The notes under the pieces are model-generated. The model searched no databases and had not been told where the DNA came from. It saw only the letters and a list, made by a program, of their open reading frames with translations. A DNA stretch of 64,000 nt from Marinifilum sp. N1E240 (GTDB lineage Bacteria; Bacteroidota; Bacteroidia; Bacteroidales; Marinifilaceae), in contig NZ_WHKF01000007.1 in the NCBI RefSeq assembly GCF_009295825.1, positions 1-64,000 of the forward strand, in the 5' to 3' direction. Positions within the stretch are counted from its first letter, which is position 1, and each line of letters starts with the position of its first letter. This document shows, piece after piece, positions 46,618 to 64,000 of the stretch. The position numbers and the translations under genes were made by a program.

Positions 46618-47481
46618 CTAAATAGCAATATTCTTTCTAGTATTAGACAAAGAATATATTTCGTTTATATTTTGTTTTAAAATAGCTTCAATTTTCTCTT
46701 TTAGTACAATATTCGATTCCGAGAATTTTAATGGAATTGTGAAGTAAAAAATTGATCCTTCACCAATATTGGAATCTATATACAATTTACCTCCTAATAA
46801 GTTGATAATCTCTTTACATAAACTCAATCCTAAACCAGCTCCTGAATGGACCCTTGTGTATGAATTATCAACCTGGGTAAATTTCTTAAATATTTTGTCT
46901 TGTTGCTCTTTACTAATTCCAGGACCATTATCTTTTACGTAGAATAAGATATTGTGTCTGTCCTGTATAGCACAACCAAAATCGATTTCTCCTTTTTCTG
47001 TAAATTTCACTGCATTATCCAATAGATAGGATAAAACTTTAGTTAGTTTTTCAAAATCAGTGAATATTTTATTTTCGCGTAAATCTTCAGTAAAATTTAA
47101 AACTATATTTTTCTGAGATTGATATATTTTTTGCCCGAAAACGGAATATAATTTTAATAACATTTCATGAATCTCCAATTCGGATTCATTGTATTCCAAG
47201 GCACCACTTTCTAATTGCGAAAGTTCCAGGATTCGATTAAACAAATCCAAAAGTTCTTTACTGCTCGATGTCAGTATTCTTGTAAATTCAGTTCGCTCGT
47301 CCTTTGAAAGAGAATCGTCTCGCAATAATTCTGATGCACCTACAATGGCATTCATTGGGGTACGAATTTCATGCGACATGTTGGCAAGAAAAGCATCTTT
47401 TAATTGCTCGGATTTTTTTACCTGAGCTTGTGCCTCTTTCAACTGTTTCTGCAATTCTTTATATGTAGGACGTTTCTCCAT
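46618..47481 (-). CDS. Soluble histidine kinase downstream of the GG-peptide array
   Basis: A 287-residue kinase with no membrane helix: an N-terminal coiled coil (about 6-30), HisKA with phospho-acceptor His37 in NMSHEIRTPMNA, and HATPase with NAVKF, VKDNGPGIS and GAGLGLSLCKEI boxes. It has no PAS, GAF or other sensor domain, so input must come through a partner or the coiled coil. It lies 114 bp downstream of the last of five double-glycine peptide genes on the same strand with no terminator between. The orphan receiver at 44709 is a candidate partner. Confidence 0.88.
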   Translation of the reverse strand: MEKRPTYKELQKQLKEAQAQVKKSEQLKDAFLANMSHEIRTPMNAIVGASELLRDDSLSKDERTEFTRILTSSSKELLDLFNRILELSQLESGALEYNESELEIHEMLLKLYSVFGQKIYQSQKNIVLNFTEDLRENKIFTDFEKLTKVLSYLLDNAVKFTEKGEIDFGCAIQDRHNILFYVKDNGPGISKEQQDKIFKKFTQVDNSYTRVHSGAGLGLSLCKEIINLLGGKLYIDSNIGEGSIFYFTIPLKFSESNIVLKEKIEAILKQNINEIYSLSNTRKNIAI

Positions 47482-47595: not shown

Positions 47596-47688
47596 TTAAA
47601 CAAGACAGTCATCTAAAATCGACTTGTCTTGCATACCACCTGTGGTATGATTTAATTCTTGAATGTTTAATTCTTCGAATGTGTTCAT
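47596..47688 (-). CDS. Double-glycine leader peptide A (30 aa)
   Basis: A 30-codon gene. The leader is MNTFEELNIQELNHTTGG and the predicted mature core is MQDKSILDDCLV. The leader shares only 6 of 18 residues with the four downstream-numbered copies, whereas the core shares 11 of 12; within the core several codons differ synonymously. The double glycine at 17-18 is the processing site used by C39 peptidases. It lies 59 bp from the array of copies B-E and nearest the kinase gene. Confidence 0.8.
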   Translation of the reverse strand: MNTFEELNIQELNHTTGGMQDKSILDDCLV

Positions 47689-47747
47689 TTTAAATTGGAT
47701 GAGAATAGTAAATATAAATAATACTTTTTACATCCACAAAAATTTAA

Positions 47748-47840
47748 TTAAACAAGACAATCGTCAAGAATAGATTTGTCAGACATACCACCTTTAATGT
47801 TTTTTAAATCTTCTGTGCTTACTACTTCAAAATTTTTCAT
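47748..47840 (-). CDS. Double-glycine leader peptide B (30 aa)
   Basis: A 30-codon gene with leader MKNFEVVSTEDLKNIKGG and core MSDKSILDDCLV. The leader has the amphipathic ELxxIxGG pattern of bacteriocin and pheromone precursors exported by peptidase-containing ABC transporters. The ATG is preceded by AAAAAAAATAGCA, repeated before every copy. The single Cys three residues from the C-terminus is the only residue suited to disulfide formation or modification. Confidence 0.85.
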   Translation of the reverse strand: MKNFEVVSTEDLKNIKGGMSDKSILDDCLV

Positions 47841-47915
47841 TGCTATTTTTTTTAGGTCAATTACTACTGGGAATTACTTTTTGGAAAATATTGGATTACT
47901 ATAGGGCAAGGTCAA

Positions 47916-48008
47916 TTAAACCAGGCAATCGTCAAGAATAGATTTATCAGACATACCACCTTTAATGTTTTTCAAATCTTCTGTGCTTACTACTTCGAAA
48001 TTTTTCAT
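47916..48008 (-). CDS. Double-glycine leader peptide C (30 aa)
   Basis: Its protein is identical to peptide B, yet the coding sequences differ at several third positions (for example Leu CTG for CTT, Cys TGC for TGT). It begins exactly 168 bp upstream of copy B on the minus strand, with a spacer nearly identical to the others in the array. Confidence 0.85.
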   Translation of the reverse strand: MKNFEVVSTEDLKNIKGGMSDKSILDDCLV

Positions 48009-48083
48009 TGCTATTTTTTTTAGGTCAATTACTACTAGGAATTACTTTTTGAAAAATATTGGATTACTATGGGTCACGGTCAC

Positions 48084-48176
48084 TTAAACAAGGCAATCGT
48101 CAAGAATAGATTTATCAGACATACCACCTTTAATGTTTTTCAAATCTTCTGTGTTTACTACTTCGAAATTTTTCAT
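48084..48176 (-). CDS. Double-glycine leader peptide D (30 aa)
   Basis: Leader MKNFEVVNTEDLKNIKGG (one change from B, Ser8 to Asn) and the same core MSDKSILDDCLV. It is offset 168 bp from copy C. Confidence 0.85.
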   Translation of the reverse strand: MKNFEVVNTEDLKNIKGGMSDKSILDDCLV

Positions 48177-48250
48177 TGCTATTTTTTTAGGTCAATTACT
48201 ACTAGGAATTACTTATTGAAAAATATTGGATTACTATGGGTTACGGTCAC

Positions 48251-48343
48251 TTAAACAAGGCAATCATCAAGAATAGATTTATCAGACATACCACCTTTAA
48301 TGTTTTTTAAATCTTCTGTGTTTAATACTTCGAAATTTTTCAT
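48251..48343 (-). CDS. Double-glycine leader peptide E (30 aa), first in the transcript
   Basis: Leader MKNFEVLNTEDLKNIKGG (two changes from B) and the same core MSDKSILDDCLV. It is 167 bp from copy D and is the first gene after the putative ECF promoter at 48384-48419, with a leader of about 40 nt. Downstream spacers match those of copies B-D; upstream sequence diverges, marking the array boundary. Confidence 0.85.
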   Translation of the reverse strand: MKNFEVLNTEDLKNIKGGMSDKSILDDCLV

Positions 48344-48535: not shown

Positions 48536-51370
48536 GTGAAAAATATTTTAAAAAAAATTCTGCTTTTTTCTCTTTTACTTGTTTTCCTGTCTGGTGAAAA
48601 CTTGAATTTAGCACACAATTCAATTCTGTTTTCAGTATCTGAAGTAAAAACGAATCCGGATTCCTTGTTGGTTCAACAATTTGATAGAGCCTTTCAATTC
48701 TTGAGAAAAGGAGATTTTCAATATGCGGAGCAATCATTTCGTAATGCTACAAATACCATAGAAAATGGAATAGTAAATAATAAAATTTTGGTATACAGAA
48801 CCTACGTTAATTTCGGAGTGTTATTAGGAAGAATTGGGAAGAGCCAGGAAGCTCTTAAATATTATAATCTATCAGAACAATTTACTATTGACAATTTTGG
48901 AGTAAATTCACAAAAATTAGTACCTCTATATGTGAATATGGGAAATATATTCGCTGAAGCGGAGGATTTATTTAAAGCGCAAACTTATTACGAGAAAGCC
49001 TTAAATTTGATTGGAAATGCAAAATCTAGATTTCTACCTAAAATTCATAATAATCTAGGTACCGTTTATTATAAAAAGAGGCAATATAATTTGGCCTTAC
49101 AATCGTATAAAGAATCTTTACGACTAAAAGAGCTTGCTAAAACTGGAGATAAGTTTTCCTCACTAAATGGTATTGCTAATTGCTATAAGAGAAGTGGCAA
49201 TTTTAATGAAGCTGAGTTGTTTTATTCGAAAAGTATATACGAAATTAAAAGAATTGGGGGTGATAACTCATATCAATTGGGAGATGTGTACTTGAATTAT
49301 GCTGTATTTCAAAATGAAAGTAAAAATTACAATAAAGTTTTACCTTATCTTACTTTAGCTTATAAAGTATACTCAAGTAATTATGGATTAAAACATCCGG
49401 ACACTGCACATTGTTTATTTAATTTTGGGGATTGGTATCATGATACGAATAAAAAGTATGATATAGCTTTAGAGTATTATCAAAAAGCGATTGTTTCTGA
49501 ATTGGATAATTTTCAGGATAGTAGTATTTATATTAATCCTAATCTGAATGAAATAGAGCCTCAATTATCAATACTTCAAATACTTAAAGGTAAAGCGCGA
49601 GCTTTAAAATCTTTATATTCCACTAGCAACAAGATAAGTGATTTAGATTTTGGTCTTCAAACTTATGATTTATGTTTGAACATTATTGATAAAATAAGAA
49701 TCGGTTATCAGGATGAAGAGAGTAAGTTTTATCTTTCTAAAAATGAGAAGGACACCTATACGGTTGCTATTGAAATTGCGGTTGAGTTATTTCAGCTAAC
49801 TGGAGATGTGAGTTATAAAGAGAAAGCTTTTAAGTATGCAGAAAGATCTAAGGCAGCAAGTTTAATGTCTTCGCTAAATGATGTAAATGCGAAGAATTTT
49901 GGTGGTATTCCTCAAGAACTTCAAGATGAAGAAATTCAATTGAGAAAGGACATTGCTTCTTATCGTGAAAAGATTTATGAAGAACGTAAAAAGGCAAGTC
50001 CCGATCGAAAGAAAATATCCGATTGGCAAGGAGTTTTGTTTGATTTAAACGAAAAATACAATCAAATGGTACTTCGTTTTGAGGAAGATTACCCTGAATA
50101 CTATGCTCTTAAATACGATAACCATACCATTGATATAGAAGAACTACAGTCAAGACTGGAAGATAATGATGTCTTAATTGAATATTCAATTTCAGATTCA
50201 GCTTTATTTACCTTTACAATTACCTCTAGTTCTTTTGAAGTAACTAGACAAAATCTAGATAAAGATAGTTTTGAGTCGCATTTGGAAGAAGTTAGAAACT
50301 GCCTGAAAACTAATGATTTTGCAGAAAAAAGTGCTGATTATTACAAACGATATACTAAATCAGCTTTTCACTTGTATAAAGAATTGTTTCAAAATCAACC
50401 TAATAATCTGGATAATAAAAATTTAATGATTGTTCCAGATGGAAAAATGGCTTACATTCCTTTTGGAGTGTTGTTAAAAAATGAGGCTGATTCTACCAGA
50501 ATGAATTATAGAGGATTGGATTATTTAATTAAAAGTAACACCATAACTTATCACAATTCGGCAACACTTGGTTTCTCTATAGAATCTGCAGGATTTAGTT
50601 TCTCATCAAATAAATCAGTTCTTGCTTTTGCACCATCTTACGAAGATGTAAATGATTCTATTCTTTATGCGGAAAGAGCATATAGAGATAAATTGTATCC
50701 TTTACCTGGTGTTAAGGAAGAGGTAAATAATATTTCTAAGGTTATTCCTGGAGATCTTTATGTTGATGATTTCGCTACTGAAAGGAATTTTAAAGATCAT
50801 GCTAGTGATTACGATGTGTTACACCTTGCGATGCATACAATTATTGATGATGAAAATCCAATGTACTCTAAACTTGTTTTTACACAAGTTGAAGATACTA
50901 CTCAGGATGGACTTTTAAATACGCATGAAATTTATAATATGAATTTTAACGCCAGAATGGTTGTTTTAAGTGCATGTAACACAGGAGATGGTAAATTAAT
51001 GAAGGGTGAAGGGGTAATGAGTTTGGCCCGAGGATTCTTTTATGCTGGTTGTCCAAGTATCATTATGACATTATGGACTGTAGAAGATCAAACTGGATCG
51101 AATTTAATGACCAATTTTTATAATTTCCTTTCTCAGGGATTAAAAAAAGATGAAGCTTTGCGTCAAGCTAAACTGGAATATTTGAAAACAGCTGATCCTT
51201 TAAAATCTCATCCATATTTCTGGTCTGGATATGTAACGATGGGAGATGTAGAACCATTATATGATTTTAATTTAAAATCTAATATTGCCTATATGGCTTT
51301 TGGTTCTTTAGGATTAATATTTCTATTAATAGCATTTAGACGTTTTAGAGCAAAAAAGATGACAGCTTAG
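48536..51370 (+). CDS. Exported, membrane-anchored TPR-CHAT (caspase-like) protein
   Basis: A 944-residue protein starting at GTG 48536; no in-frame ATG precedes the signal sequence (hydrophobic residues 8-20). TPR repeats fill about 50-325 (for example AEAEDLFKAQTYYEKALNLI). A helical linker (430-520) leads to a CHAT domain (about 535-905) with the caspase-type dyad: His767 in VLHLAMH and Cys814 in LSACNTGDG. A single helix (about 915-933) followed by RRFRAKK anchors it with the CHAT domain outside the cytoplasm. It is divergent from the peptide array and faces an ECF sigma operon. The protease substrate is unknown. Confidence 0.9.
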   Translation: MKNILKKILLFSLLLVFLSGENLNLAHNSILFSVSEVKTNPDSLLVQQFDRAFQFLRKGDFQYAEQSFRNATNTIENGIVNNKILVYRTYVNFGVLLGRIGKSQEALKYYNLSEQFTIDNFGVNSQKLVPLYVNMGNIFAEAEDLFKAQTYYEKALNLIGNAKSRFLPKIHNNLGTVYYKKRQYNLALQSYKESLRLKELAKTGDKFSSLNGIANCYKRSGNFNEAELFYSKSIYEIKRIGGDNSYQLGDVYLNYAVFQNESKNYNKVLPYLTLAYKVYSSNYGLKHPDTAHCLFNFGDWYHDTNKKYDIALEYYQKAIVSELDNFQDSSIYINPNLNEIEPQLSILQILKGKARALKSLYSTSNKISDLDFGLQTYDLCLNIIDKIRIGYQDEESKFYLSKNEKDTYTVAIEIAVELFQLTGDVSYKEKAFKYAERSKAASLMSSLNDVNAKNFGGIPQELQDEEIQLRKDIASYREKIYEERKKASPDRKKISDWQGVLFDLNEKYNQMVLRFEEDYPEYYALKYDNHTIDIEELQSRLEDNDVLIEYSISDSALFTFTITSSSFEVTRQNLDKDSFESHLEEVRNCLKTNDFAEKSADYYKRYTKSAFHLYKELFQNQPNNLDNKNLMIVPDGKMAYIPFGVLLKNEADSTRMNYRGLDYLIKSNTITYHNSATLGFSIESAGFSFSSNKSVLAFAPSYEDVNDSILYAERAYRDKLYPLPGVKEEVNNISKVIPGDLYVDDFATERNFKDHASDYDVLHLAMHTIIDDENPMYSKLVFTQVEDTTQDGLLNTHEIYNMNFNARMVVLSACNTGDGKLMKGEGVMSLARGFFYAGCPSIIMTLWTVEDQTGSNLMTNFYNFLSQGLKKDEALRQAKLEYLKTADPLKSHPYFWSGYVTMGDVEPLYDFNLKSNIAYMAFGSLGLIFLLIAFRRFRAKKMTA

Positions 51371-51564: not shown

Positions 51565-52317
51565 TTATTCCAGTCTACTAAGAATTTCCTGTGCTTTACT
51601 TTTGTAGAAGCTATTTCCTTTGGCAATAGTATTAAATTGCTTAATGGCTTTATCTCTATCATTAGTCATTAAGTAACAAAACCCTAAATACCATTCAGAT
51701 TGCTCTATAAACAGGTTATTCTTATGTCGAATTACTCTGGTAAAGTTCTTATTTGCTTTATGATATTCGTTAATTTCCAAATTAGAAATACCTGAATAAA
51801 AATTACTCGTTATATTCGTACTGTCTTTATCTAAGATTTGCTTAAATAGATCCAAAGCAGTCCGATAATCTTTCGATTCGTAACTTTTTAAAGCAGTCAC
51901 CAGCATGTTATCGATACCCATATCTGTCGAACGATTATTTATAACAATTTTATACGGTTTGTAATAATTGCTATAAACCTTTTCGTTAGAATAGGTGCTC
52001 TTGTTATTTGCTAGAAACATCAAACTACCAATACCAATGAATAGAGCAAGAGATGCTGCTACAATATTCCATTTGGTTAAGTATTTGAATTTTCTCTTTT
52101 TATCTTCATTCGGAGGAGTTTCAATAGCCTCAAGTTTACTTCTTAAGTCCATTACATCTTGTTCCATTATGGCTTCATCTACCTCCTTGTGCAGATCCAG
52201 TTCCATTTGAAGATCTGAATCGTTGAGAAGATCTTTCTCGAATTCCTTCAGTTGGTCGTTAGACAATTCACCGTCCAGGAAATCCTCAATACGGTCAAAA
52301 TTCATTTCATCCATCAT
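51565..52317 (-). CDS. Membrane anti-sigma-like protein with periplasmic TPR domain
   Basis: A 250-residue protein. The start at 52317 (ATGATGGATGAA) overlaps the sigma gene stop by 11 bp, typical of translational coupling; 52314 and 52335 are alternatives. The cytoplasmic N-terminus (1-80: FDRIEDFLDGELSNDQLKEF) has the short helical zinc-less anti-sigma form common in Bacteroidota. One membrane helix lies at about 83-102, and a TPR-containing periplasmic domain at about 130-248. It should hold the ECF sigma factor until an envelope signal releases it; that role is inferred from position and topology. Confidence 0.82.
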   Translation of the reverse strand: MMDEMNFDRIEDFLDGELSNDQLKEFEKDLLNDSDLQMELDLHKEVDEAIMEQDVMDLRSKLEAIETPPNEDKKRKFKYLTKWNIVAASLALFIGIGSLMFLANNKSTYSNEKVYSNYYKPYKIVINNRSTDMGIDNMLVTALKSYESKDYRTALDLFKQILDKDSTNITSNFYSGISNLEINEYHKANKNFTRVIRHKNNLFIEQSEWYLGFCYLMTNDRDKAIKQFNTIAKGNSFYKSKAQEILSRLE

Positions 52318-52873
52318 ATACTTCTTTAAATTCATTATCACTTTTAATACTCTCAATCAGCATTTGTTTACACTGATATTTTCTCTTTTTAGCATACTTT
52401 TCACTCTTATAACCCATAACTTCGGCTATTTCTTTTAGTGAAATCTTATCCAATGCGAGTTGAAGTACCTTTTTACAATCTGCTCCAAGGTTTTGGAAAT
52501 GTTTTTGATATAGTCTGTACTTCTCCGTTTGGTCATAAGTAGGAGAGGCTTCGTCTAATCTATTATCCAAAATACCATCGGAATTAACCTCATTGCTATT
52601 TTTCTTTTTCTCAAGTTGCTTCAACCATAAAAGTCTGCAAATGGAATAGATGTATGTTTTAAAATTACAATTAAGAACCAAGGGTTCTTTTTTCATTTTA
52701 CGATAGATTACAATAATAGCTTCTTGAAAAAGATCGCGTGCATCCTCCTCGTTCCCATTATTGTTTTCTATAAAATTGCGAATACTCGGAAAGAATTTTT
52801 TGTAGATGTAATTTAATACATCATTATTACTCATACTTATTCCTTCAAGTATCGCCTCCGTAGTGTAATCCAT
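52307..52873 (-). CDS. ECF-type RNA polymerase sigma factor
   Basis: A 188-residue sigma-70-family factor. Region 2 is seen as DARDLFQEAIIVIYRKM followed by FKTYIYSICRLLWL, and region 4 as the C-terminal helix-turn-helix LALDKISLKEIAEVMGYKS followed by EKYAKKRKYQCKQML. It is the first gene of a two-gene operon with an overlapping anti-sigma-like gene. The promoter element upstream is repeated before the GG-peptide array, so it probably autoregulates and controls those peptides. Confidence 0.92.
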   Translation of the reverse strand: MDYTTEAILEGISMSNNDVLNYIYKKFFPSIRNFIENNNGNEEDARDLFQEAIIVIYRKMKKEPLVLNCNFKTYIYSICRLLWLKQLEKKKNSNEVNSDGILDNRLDEASPTYDQTEKYRLYQKHFQNLGADCKKVLQLALDKISLKEIAEVMGYKSEKYAKKRKYQCKQMLIESIKSDNEFKEVYDG

Positions 52874-52882
52874 ATTTTCTAT

Positions 52883-52917
52883 CCCTTTATTCCCTTTATA
52901 ATAAAAAGGTAACCCTC
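52883..52917 (-). promoter_or_regulatory. Putative autoregulatory ECF promoter
   Basis: On the minus strand GAGGGTTACCTTTTT, 8 nt, GGGAATAAAGGG, ending 9 bp before the sigma start codon. It matches the element at 48384-48419 in both blocks and in spacing. The rest of the 52918-53170 spacer is A/T-rich with nothing else I recognise. Confidence 0.7.
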
Positions 52918-61370: not shown

Positions 61371-63578
61371 TTGAAAAAGAAATTCCCTCACTTCCGCCAG
61401 TTGGATGCCATGGATTGTGGTCCTACTTGTTTGAGAATGATTGCCAAGCATTATGGCAAAACATTCAGCTTGCAATCTTTAAGAGATAAATCTCACATTA
61501 CCCGCGAGGGAGTTTCTATGCTTGGTATTGCCGATGCTGCCGAAAGCATTGGTTTAAAAACTATGGGCGTTCGAATTTCGTTCGAGCAATTAGAGAAAGA
61601 TGCACCTCTTCCGGCGATTTGTCATTGGGGACAGAATCATTTTGTAGTGGTTCATAAAATCGAGACCAAAAGGGGTAAAACAACAGTTCATGTTGCCGAT
61701 CCGGGTTCTGGATTATTGAAATTTACTAAGGAGGAGTTTAAAAAGCAATGGGCAAGCACGCAAAGCCAGGGAGAATTGAAGGGCTTGTGTTTATTAGTTG
61801 AAACTACTCCTGATTTTTACAGTCAAAGTGATGAAGATGTTTCTAATAAAAAGAGTATTGGATTTCTTTTGAAATATCTTAAACCTTATCGTAAATTTTT
61901 AATTCAGCTGATATTGGGAATGCTTTTTGGAAGTATGCTTCAGTTGATTTTCCCGTTTCTTACCCAATCGGTTGTTGATGTTGGTATCAATACACAGAAC
62001 CTCAATTTTATTTATTTGGTTCTGATAGCGCAATTGGTGTTGTTTGTTTCACGAATGTCTGTTGAGTTCATTAGATCGTGGATCTTACTACACATTTCAA
62101 CCAGAATTAATATATCATTGATATCTGATTTTCTGATTAAGCTGATGAAATTGCCAATTGGCTTTTTTGATATCAAAATGATTGGAGATTTATTACAAAG
62201 GATTCAAGATCATACAAGAATCGAAAATTTCTTGACATCGTCAACATTAAATGTATTGTTCTCGATGGTAAATTTGGTGATTTTCGGAGCTGTATTGGCA
62301 GTTTATAACATGCAGATTTTCTTTATTTTTCTTTTAGGTTCTGCATTGTATTTAATTTGGGTGAACTTGTTCTTACGTAAACGTCGTGAGTTGGATGGCA
62401 AACGTTTCGCTCAATTGTCAAGCAATCAAAATTCTTTGGTACAGTTAATTACCGGAATGCAAGAAATTAAGCTGAACAATTGTGAAAAGCAAAAACGTTG
62501 GGAATGGGAACAAATTCAGGCAGAATTGTTTCAGGTTCGAACCAAAGGCTTAGCTTTAAATCAGTATCAAATATCAGGTTCAATATTTTTTAACGAAACC
62601 AAGAATATCATTATCACTTTTTTGGCAGCAAAAGCAGTTGTGGACGGTCAAATGACACTCGGTATGATGATGGCTGTTCAGTATATTATTGGTCAGTTAA
62701 ACTCACCCTTAGATAATTTGGTTCAGGTAATTCATTCGTGGCAAGATGCTAAAATTTCTTTGGAACGATTGGGCGAAATACACGAAATGAAAAATGAGGA
62801 AGAACATTCAGATGAAAAAATTAGCGAAATTCCAGGAGAGAAAACCATAAATATTGACAAAGTTTGCTTCCAATATGAAGGTCCTCATTCCGAAATGGTT
62901 TTGAACGAAGTTAATTTGGATGTAGAGCATGGTAAAACTACAGCTATTGTAGGAGCATCGGGTAGTGGTAAAACTACTTTAATTAAACTGATGTTAGGTT
63001 TTTATCCTACTACAAAGGGTAGAATTTCATTAGGTGGAGTTACTTTGGCAAATTACAGTTCTTCTATGTGGAGACAAAACTGTGGTGTTGTAATGCAGGA
63101 CGGGTTTATTTTCTCGGATACTATTGCAAAAAACATTGCTGTAGGAGTTGAGCATATCGATAAAAAGAGATTGCTTTATGCAGTGCAAGTTGCCTGTATC
63201 GATCAATTTATAGAAACCTTACCATTGCGATATAATACCAATATTGGTGCGAATGGTCACGGTTTAAGCCAAGGTCAGAAACAAAGAATACTAATTGCTC
63301 GTGCGGTTTATAAGAATCCTGAATTTCTTTTCTTCGATGAAGCTACAAATGCATTAGATGCCAATAATGAATTGGCAATTATGGAGAATTTGGATGAGTT
63401 CAATAAGGGTAGAACTGTTGTGGTGGTTGCACACCGATTAAGTACAGTGCGTAATGCTGATAAGATTATCGTTTTGGAAAAAGGGGAAATTGTTGAGCAA
63501 GGTACACATGAAGAATTAACACGTTTAGAAGGTAAGTATTATCAGTTGGTTAAAAATCAGTTGGAATTAGGGAATTAA
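61371..63578 (+). CDS. Peptidase-containing ABC transporter (C39 bacteriocin/peptide exporter)
   Basis: A 735-residue inner-membrane exporter that cleaves double-glycine leaders and exports the core peptide. The N-terminal C39 domain (1-130) has the full triad Cys16 (MDCGPTC), His90 (GQNHFVVVH) and Asp110 (VADPGSG), with oxyanion Gln10. Six membrane helices span about 165-450. The ATPase domain has GASGSGKTT, signature LSQGQKQR and FFDEATNALD. The start is TTG at 61371: a stop codon lies 3 codons upstream and no ATG precedes the catalytic Cys. It is followed after 14 bp by an HlyD gene. Confidence 0.94.
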   Translation: MKKKFPHFRQLDAMDCGPTCLRMIAKHYGKTFSLQSLRDKSHITREGVSMLGIADAAESIGLKTMGVRISFEQLEKDAPLPAICHWGQNHFVVVHKIETKRGKTTVHVADPGSGLLKFTKEEFKKQWASTQSQGELKGLCLLVETTPDFYSQSDEDVSNKKSIGFLLKYLKPYRKFLIQLILGMLFGSMLQLIFPFLTQSVVDVGINTQNLNFIYLVLIAQLVLFVSRMSVEFIRSWILLHISTRINISLISDFLIKLMKLPIGFFDIKMIGDLLQRIQDHTRIENFLTSSTLNVLFSMVNLVIFGAVLAVYNMQIFFIFLLGSALYLIWVNLFLRKRRELDGKRFAQLSSNQNSLVQLITGMQEIKLNNCEKQKRWEWEQIQAELFQVRTKGLALNQYQISGSIFFNETKNIIITFLAAKAVVDGQMTLGMMMAVQYIIGQLNSPLDNLVQVIHSWQDAKISLERLGEIHEMKNEEEHSDEKISEIPGEKTINIDKVCFQYEGPHSEMVLNEVNLDVEHGKTTAIVGASGSGKTTLIKLMLGFYPTTKGRISLGGVTLANYSSSMWRQNCGVVMQDGFIFSDTIAKNIAVGVEHIDKKRLLYAVQVACIDQFIETLPLRYNTNIGANGHGLSQGQKQRILIARAVYKNPEFLFFDEATNALDANNELAIMENLDEFNKGRTVVVVAHRLSTVRNADKIIVLEKGEIVEQGTHEELTRLEGKYYQLVKNQLELGN

Positions 63579-63592
63579 ATTTGTGTCTAAAA

Positions 63593-64000
63593 ATGGAGAA
63601 AGATAACAATATAGAGTTACGTTCGGACGAAGTAAAAGAGATTTTAGGTAGAGTTCCGAACTGGATCATTCGAAGTGGAACCACACTGTTTTTTGTTGTA
63701 ATATTCACAATAATAGTTGGTAGTTACTTTTTTAAATATCCTGATATTATCGGATCTAGATTGGTATTAAGTACATTGAATCCACCAGCTGAATTAGTCG
63801 CTCGATCTTCAGGAAAGATTCAAATTTTATACGTTGAAGATAATCAAGAAGTCAAAAAAGGAAACCTTCTGGCAATTATTGATAATCCTGCGATTATTGA
63901 TGACGTATTTTTGTTAAAAGAAAGATTGGATGTTTTCCAGGGACATTTAACTGGAAAGGAGAGTATTGAATCAAATTTATTGGAAAGTAATTTTAGATTA
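63593..64000 (+). CDS. HlyD-family secretion adaptor, cut by window end
   Basis: The first 136 codons of an open frame running off the right edge. The N-terminus is cytoplasmic, with one membrane helix at about residues 28-48 (TTLFFVVIFTIIVGSYFF), then a biotinyl-lipoyl-like half motif (ARSSGKIQILYVEDNQEVKK, then GNLLAIIDNP) and the start of a coiled-coil hairpin. It forms the periplasmic part of the exporter with the preceding C39 transporter, 14 bp upstream. Confidence 0.9.
   Translation, partial: MEKDNNIELRSDEVKEILGRVPNWIIRSGTTLFFVVIFTIIVGSYFFKYPDIIGSRLVLSTLNPPAELVARSSGKIQILYVEDNQEVKKGNLLAIIDNPAIIDDVFLLKERLDVFQGHLTGKESIESNLLESNFRL

Follow-up and report, generated by a model that had tools for sequence, protein, structure and literature searches.

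The window, i.e., the 64,000-nucleotide stretch of Marinifilum sp. N1E240 DNA analyzed here, carries an array of five 30-codon genes that lies between a histidine kinase gene and a divergent gene for a TPR-CHAT protein. An ECF sigma factor gene and a gene for an anti-sigma-like TPR protein are found beyond the CHAT gene, array and sigma gene each have the same promoter-like block in front of them, and a C39-peptidase ABC exporter (PCAT) is encoded 13 kb from the array (Table 1).

Table 1. Features of the peptide locus and their positions in the window.
Feature	Position	Strand	Remarks
Sensor-less histidine kinase (HisKA + HATPase)	46618..47481	-	directly 3' of the array; Pfam
GG peptide precursor 5	47596..47688	-	divergent leader MNTFEELNIQELNHTTGG, near-identical core MQDKSILDDCLV (vs MSDKSILDDCLV)
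GG peptide precursor 4, tandem copy	47748..47840	-	ORF and repeat spacing
GG peptide precursor 3, tandem copy	47916..48008	-	ORF and repeat spacing
GG peptide precursor 2, tandem copy	48084..48176	-	ORF and repeat spacing
GG peptide precursor 1	48251..48343	-	18-aa leader and core MSDKSILDDCLV; homologues in the family
Promoter-like block GGGTTAC-N15-GGAATAAAGGGGTGTAA	48377..48417	-	upstream of the array; putative function
TPR-CHAT (caspase-like) protein	48536..51370	+	divergent from the array; hydrophobic N-terminus, C-terminal hydrophobic segment, His767/Cys814
Anti-sigma-like protein	51565..52356	-	helical domain at the N-terminus, single hydrophobic helix, TPR domain at the C-terminus; putative role and topology
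ECF sigma factor	52307..52873	-	above the cut-offs of Sigma70_r2 (Pfam) and TIGR02937 (NCBIfam)
Same promoter-like block, equal spacing	52875..52915	-	2 nt before the ECF sigma start codon; putative function
C39-peptidase ABC exporter (PCAT)	61371..63578	+	candidate peptide processor/exporter
HlyD-type adaptor of the exporter	63581..64000	+	runs on past the window (L060:3581-4891)

The five array ORFs are real genes. As the original prediction stated, all are minus-strand ORFs of 30 codons, each encoding an 18-residue leader with a terminal GG and a 12-residue core, and four are tandem duplicates, spacer included. All five start with ATG, and the tandem ones, the four upstream copies, are spaced by 168, 168 and 167 bp. 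They are the sole ORFs of the 30-codon GG form in the 64-kb window; 2000 dinucleotide shuffles of the 748-bp stretch yielded a mean of 0.0045 and a maximum of 2 such ORFs vs the 5 observed. ORFs this short and tandemly duplicated might be chance readings of non-functional repeats, an explanation that can practically be dismissed: the noise reading is refuted by the family homologues, in which the GG and an ORF length of 30 or 33 codons (34 in one case) are retained across the examined genomes, and by the pN/pS of 0.08 for same-type leaders compared between genomes, as well as by the shuffle control.

Both leader types exceed the NCBIfam TIGR01847 cut-off (17.4 and 19.0 bits vs 15.7), and a 30-row peptide alignment has invariant M1, F4, G17, G18 and C-terminal V, with E5 and L12 near-invariant. 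These scores, together with a C39 transporter orthologue in all 21 peptide-bearing genomes of the family, bear out the proposal that the array encodes double-glycine precursors that are probable C39 substrates; also in line with the original prediction, a Pfam scan of 20 window ORFs found no RiPP-modifying enzyme adjoining the array. The suggested parallel to class II bacteriocins is not supported: for eight peptides, Bacteriocin_IIc (22.7 vs 27.1 bits), ComC (18.4 vs 20.4) and Lactococcin (20.8 vs 23.1) all stay under their Pfam cut-offs, the core, with its 12 residues, is short and acidic, and no immunity gene was recognized. The original prediction did not cover the adjoining TPR-CHAT and kinase genes, the block common to the array and the ECF sigma gene, the species specificity of the core or the order-wide recurrence of peptide-CHAT pairs.

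A lack of homologues outside this genome had been named as an observation that would refute the prediction; this refutation fails, as such peptides occur in 20 further genomes of the family. At E ≤ 0.1, a single 30-mer query hit 20 of the 56 family genomes, and G002, missed by this search, has two array-like peptides at the same place, which brings the total to 21. At least two copies are present in 19 of the 21 genomes; G033 and G038 have one each, at a contig end. Homologues near C39 transporters or an ECF operon, for which a check had been proposed, are found in both settings. A search with a peptide profile (A1) of 393 evenly chosen genomes of the order, few of them from the peptide-bearing family, gave two hits outside Marinifilum sp. 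N1E240, both leader-only, and the exact peptide family therefore appears to be confined to one bacterial family.

The gene neighborhood is retained along with the peptides. The peptide gene adjoins the divergent TPR-CHAT gene in 20/21 genomes (the G038 contig ends first), the peptides lie upstream of a sensor-less histidine kinase of ~275-287 aa in 20/21 (the G033 contig ends inside the array), and the ECF sigma and anti-sigma-like TPR genes follow beyond CHAT in 19/21. The sigma/anti-sigma-like pair is relocated in G049 and G050 with the block retained, and CHAT, peptides and kinase are still together there; in genus g2, other genes lie beyond the kinase and the module is retained. By profile searches of the family, each of the 21 peptide-bearing genomes has a CHAT orthologue and 20 of them have a kinase orthologue; a distant CHAT orthologue is also present in G025. 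Because the peptide-bearing genomes share clade ancestry, the co-occurrence counts are not independent events.

The window C39/HlyD pair presumably exports the array peptides. A PCAT orthologue with 84-92% identity is present in all 20 other peptide-bearing genomes (partial in G037), and among the remaining 35 family genomes an identity above 62% is reached only in the highly fragmented G031 (88%) and in G025 (70%). When PCATs from CHAT loci of other families are compared with the three over-cut-off C39 transporters of N1E240, 11/11 are closest to the window PCAT, and 10 of these 11 loci have a recognized peptide. A pattern search of the N1E240 genome found no promoter-like block upstream of the exporter. 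The second C39 locus of this genome (L059:7021-17009) encodes cysteine-bearing GG peptides, a 442-aa putative maturase and a kinase/response-regulator-like gene pair, and the third exporter (L058:6958-12146) has a 55-residue GG peptide ORF nearby.

TPR-CHAT is a putative protease with a His-Cys pair: Pfam assigns the CHAT domain 198 bits, and His767 and Cys814 are invariant in 19 family rows and in 42/42 homologues from the L062-L104 loci. The N-terminal TPRs have profile matches to kinesin light chain, LGN and Rap phosphatase (6t3h), and several of the TPR fold matches are titled as complexes with peptides or peptide-like partners. In the AlphaFold model, pLDDT is mostly > 80 in the TPR part and < 50 for residues 673-855; because the model is good in the TPR part only, the catalytic fold carries no claim from it. 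The anti-sigma-like protein matched no Pfam or NCBIfam anti-sigma model, and its fold search returned TPR or TPR-like proteins, with no anti-sigma factor among the 50 matches listed.

The ECF sigma factor probably switches on the peptide genes via the promoter-like block, which would act as a promoter on the array and on the sigma factor's own gene. The block is present in 17/17 aligned array-CHAT intergenic regions of the family, two of which (L034 and L045) depart from it by one base. It stands before the array as well as the sigma gene in 20/20 genomes that yielded the upstream region of each, G004 having a one-base variant; the listed sigma ORF of L033 and L039 starts upstream of the block. 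In the N1E240 genome, the pattern (GGGTTA-N15-18) occurs four times and its reversed control not once; the four sites precede the array, the sigma gene, a gingipain-like C25 protease that carries a type IX secretion tail, and a LanC/LanB-N/LanB-C operon. Family-wide, 60 sites (GGGTTAC-N14-16) lie in 23/56 genomes vs 1 for the reversed control: 20 of these genomes have peptides, the others are G025, G031 and G032, and the remaining peptide genome is G004 with its one-base variant. Eighteen further sites in relatives include four before a C25 protease (G028, G032, G035, G039), two before a relative of the LanC operon's small first gene (G025, G038), one before a 578-aa protein weakly similar to the C25 protein (G033) and two at contig edges; the other nine precede other or unknown genes. 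An additional G038 site is located at a paralogous CHAT-peptide locus. Among 44 order-level loci, the block was not found, bar a degenerate look-alike (GTGTTA...) in G252, in two overlapping loci. The block-preceded Lan operon (L191:3806-8787) encodes LanC, LanB-N, LanB-C and a 67-aa HTH-like protein that lacks a Pfam match, with no recognized precursor peptide.

Eleven genomes contain two peptide types together, one being the tandem type and the other a last copy that diverges from it. Divergent-leader pairs within a genome have a mean identity of 0.45 in the leader and 0.87 in the core (37 non-independent pairs); near-identical-leader pairs between genomes have 0.94 and 0.65 (459 pairs, likewise non-independent). 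Assigning each last-copy core to the tandem core of its own genome is the best permutation in both length classes (ties 2/120 and 2/720). By sequence, the cores are species-specific and, within a genome, look as though they were fitted to one shared partner. This matching operates at the protein level, since sibling cores with divergent leaders have pS of 0.82 (synonymous sites saturated) and pN of 0.08. Gene conversion as the source of identical cores is largely rejected for these pairs because identical residues use differing codons at 55% (12-mers) and 39% (15-mers), as compared to 10% among tandem-type copies. Old partial conversion is possible, as codon differences in own-genome pairs are slightly below those in other-genome pairs (0.55 vs 0.64 for 12-mers, 0.39 vs 0.48 for 15-mers); in the two-copy genus (G001-G005), the cores are 0 to 3 synonymous codons apart and uninformative on conversion. 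The own-genome match is lowest in G034 (0.77), with G028 and G050 near at 0.80. In G034, the anti-sigma-like and CHAT genes (L031 5526-6301, 6524-9366) are each split into two ORFs and the array is intact, so that its low match is, in this one case, as predicted if the common partner has been lost.

In some species pairs, the TPR part of CHAT varies more than the rest of the protein. In four of eight species pairs (G036/G039, G035/G028, G035/G030 and G030/G028, three of which share genomes), CHAT residues 41-280 have pS of 0.58-0.64 and pN of 0.18-0.19, vs 0.21-0.24 and 0.01-0.02 in the remainder of the protein; in the neighboring genes, pS is 0.05-0.34 and pN 0.00-0.04. The TPR alleles of these four pairs look as though they have been exchanged or long maintained. 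The cassette is weaker in G049/G050 (0.38, 0.07 vs 0.12, 0.01), where RuvB and Rrf2 diverge more, and is not seen in three of the eight pairs: pS is high over the whole protein in G037/G040 and G027/G029, and the pattern is reversed in G039/G040 (0.32 in the TPR part, 0.48 in the remainder of CHAT). Within genera, no covariation between core and TPR cassette is seen, e.g., G036/G039 have a TPR distance of 0.22 and a core distance of 0 (one residue with the other G039 copy), which weakens the claim that the TPR is a receptor, a step argued from variability and analogy. The distances of other local genes correlate with that of the core at 0.70-0.86, barely below the 0.87-0.88 of CHAT, i.e., core distance follows phylogeny.

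Pairs of GG peptides and CHAT genes recur beyond the family. The CHAT profile (A2) has hits in 153/393 genomes of the order at E ≤ 1e-50 and in 18/296 genomes of the phylum, N1E240 included, at E ≤ 1e-100. Forty order-level loci (L065-L104) were hand-picked, mostly as the best-scoring with some weaker ones, and are thus a non-random sample; L062 and L063 were added owing to earlier hits. A GG-leader ORF, defined by a loose regular expression among ATG ORFs of 22-110 aa, lies ≤ 1 kb upstream of 23/39 CHAT genes vs 5/90 control genes (Fisher p 1e-10; 21/37 without L062 and L063), the CHAT genes of L068, L071 and L084 being left out as they sit at a contig end without upstream sequence. A first control (22/38 vs 26/111) was contaminated because control genes had the same upstream peptide, and the count given here was obtained minus the offending genes; of the five control hits that remain, two are themselves additional CHAT-locus peptides. 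Twenty-two of the peptide-positive CHAT genes belong to 13 other families and one (L062) to the own family, so that, among the loci examined, a GG peptide stands beside TPR-CHAT in 14 families of the order. One of ten leaders from the order search passes TIGR01847 (L062) and none of the nine from other families does; the non-L062 leaders, which fall below this cut-off, are consequently called by pattern only. The order-level cores are net negative in 26/28 cases, and an acidic-hydrophobic motif, [DE][DE][ILCVAYW][LIVW], recurs in 10/28 vs 1.2 expected, with 0/2000 shuffles as high, a p value that is optimistic because the motif was picked after the cores were seen. The peptide label requires 6 changes over a 61-protein CHAT tree, vs 15.7 when shuffled; the bootstrap is unsettled, 20 near-copy family rows favor clustering, and L068, L071 and L084 are scored peptide-less for want of upstream sequence. 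A C39 exporter is also present in 11/42 CHAT loci, 10 of these with a peptide, and at L069 a single run of genes comprises the peptide, the anti-sigma-like TPR protein, a kinase, LytTR, the exporter and HlyD.

With only slightly more confidence than doubt, we propose that the array encodes a secreted peptide signal which is read by TPR-CHAT and feeds an anti-sigma/ECF-sigma loop. In the circuit that we infer, the direction of control included, several gene copies would supply a species-specific peptide: the C39 transporter/HlyD pair would cleave the pre-peptides behind the GG and export the product, and the mature 12-mer would be bound in the periplasm by the TPR domain of a membrane-anchored TPR-CHAT. 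Binding would control TPR-CHAT, which may then act, by proteolysis, on the membrane anti-sigma-like TPR protein to free the ECF sigma factor; the latter would transcribe its own gene and the peptide array, closing a positive feedback. Its output set in N1E240 would also include the gingipain-like secreted protease and the LanC/LanB peptide-modification operon. The cytosolic histidine kinase after the array may be a second output, one for which the proposed circuit does not account. A precedent comes from CRISPR: the TPR-CHAT protease Csx29 cuts Csx30, which lifts the inhibition of an ECF sigma factor (PMC10028731). By analogy, the window's TPR-CHAT, anti-sigma-like TPR protein and ECF sigma factor would correspond to Csx29, Csx30 and the sigma factor, respectively, with the exported peptide as the putative trigger.

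The same genes could serve the producer alone. The peptides would then act in its own envelope, as co-secreted ligands, substrates or inhibitors that restrain TPR-CHAT rather than as an intercellular signal, in envelope-stress or self-recognition/cell-death control. We regard this as unlikely, yet with appreciable weight: recurrent pairing with TPR-CHAT, species-matched cores, the divergent TPR cassette of some pairs and the caspase-like family to which CHAT belongs are all in keeping with it, but several gene copies behind a block that appears self-activating fit a population signal better, and so do the outputs, a secreted protease and a peptide-modification operon, which resemble public goods; the data hardly discriminate between the two readings. 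It is improbable that the peptides are antimicrobials akin to class II bacteriocins. Their leader passes a signature titled 'bacteriocin' (TIGR01847) and is weakly similar to Bacteriocin_IIc, and a C39 exporter is at hand; however, the cores are acidic 12-15-mers, with the same net negative tendency across the order, the sub-threshold Pfam scores and unrecognized immunity gene point away from a bacteriocin, and so do the core matching within genomes and the placement of the locus among regulators. The receptor, in turn, might be the downstream kinase rather than TPR-CHAT, as in ComC/ComD-like two-component sensing. The kinase orthologue follows the array in all genomes except the one in which the contig ends, but Pfam finds HisKA and HATPase only, with no sensor domain, and pN is 0.00-0.02 in 7/8 species pairs (0.07 in G027/G029), a strong conservation unlike that of a co-evolving receptor; we hold this arrangement to be very improbable.

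Extended from the locus to the order, the preferred reading, in which TPR-CHAT senses the peptide, becomes more tentative: short exported GG peptides, with cores that agree inside each species, may be read beyond the inner membrane by TPR-CHAT proteins with divergent TPR alleles, leading to ECF sigma release or to signaling by a soluble kinase, and would constitute a new kind of communication. We consider this generalization plausible, though short of probable.

Peptide signaling is well described in Gram-positive bacteria; to our knowledge, comparable circuits in Bacteroidota are little known. Streptococcal ComC/CSP pheromones have a GG leader, a C39 exporter, a species-specific core encoded beside a variable receptor, and self-activating expression. 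The array shares with them the GG leader, the C39 exporter, a short core without an adjoining modifying enzyme, the species specificity of that core and a variable putative receptor encoded next to it. By contrast, it is tandem, belongs to a Gram-negative member of the Bacteroidota, scores under the Pfam ComC cut-off, and has TPR-CHAT, ECF sigma and anti-sigma-like genes as neighbors along with a kinase that lacks a sensor domain. The RRNPP regulators (Rap, NprR, PlcR, Rgg) offer a likeness in the TPR superhelix, which is proposed here to bind a short linear peptide and has a profile match to Rap phosphatase 6t3h; unlike them, the window TPR protein has a signal-like N-terminus, a C-terminal hydrophobic segment and a CHAT output in place of HTH or phosphatase. 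The type III-E Craspase (Csx29-Csx30-CASP-sigma) combines a TPR-CHAT protease, an ECF sigma factor, an inhibitor between them and sigma sites in its own locus (PMC10028731); the window locus resembles it in the TPR-CHAT protein and the ECF sigma factor and, by analogy, in a putative inhibitor and a putative promoter block. The two systems differ in that a Pfam scan of 20 window ORFs found no Cas proteins, gRAMP/Cas7-11 included, that the window TPR-CHAT appears secreted and membrane-anchored, with a peptide, not RNA, as the proposed trigger, and that the anti-sigma-like protein combines TPRs with a hydrophobic helix. GG leaders likewise go with PCAT exporters in the GG-leader RiPP clusters of Bacteroidales (PMC10352776) and in bacteroidetocins (cf. 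PMC6671954), whereas the array has no adjoining modifying enzyme and its core is not bacteriocin-like; the 'chat' matches in PMC10352776 are to an author's name rather than to the domain. GG peptides tied to CHAT proteases, or a Bacteroidota circuit of this type, are undescribed among the open-access matches listed.

If the proposal is true, the locus would represent an undescribed kind of bacterial peptide-sensing circuit, and one that can be tested, with a candidate at hand for the signal, its exporter and receptor, the transducer and the promoter. It would provide a function for the widespread TPR-CHAT group, making CHAT proteases peptide receptors in Bacteroidota, and would extend the Csx29-Csx30-sigma logic of CRISPR to a peptide trigger. 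It would also suggest that signals of this sort readily escape notice, their genes being only 30 codons long.

Several loci depart from the common arrangement. At L087:3121-3276, a small ORF beside CHAT has a Sec-signal-like start and ends in GSGGDDDIILGGG, with the acidic-hydrophobic motif and without the usual GG leader. In a group of ~1100-aa CHAT proteins (L074, L075, L076, L080, L081, L082, L085, L086), an adjacent ~410-aa secreted protein replaces the GG peptide, and kinase or sigma/TPR genes are nearby in 8/8 loci; the ~410-aa protein of L074, the one scanned, has a type IX secretion tail, and the core motif has single matches in four of the eight ~410-aa proteins, with no consistent position. 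Within the family, the paralogous G038 locus (L057:2622-5375) has a TPR-homologous gene 3' of the block, a CHAT gene (24% identity) and a divergent GG peptide, and contig G038:C30 is identical to a Marinifilum MAG contig (NCBI: Marinifilaceae), the one close named relative among the matches listed. In G001 (L034:10331-16549), two tandem CHAT genes lie beside two peptide genes, which suggests a duplication of the putative receptor.
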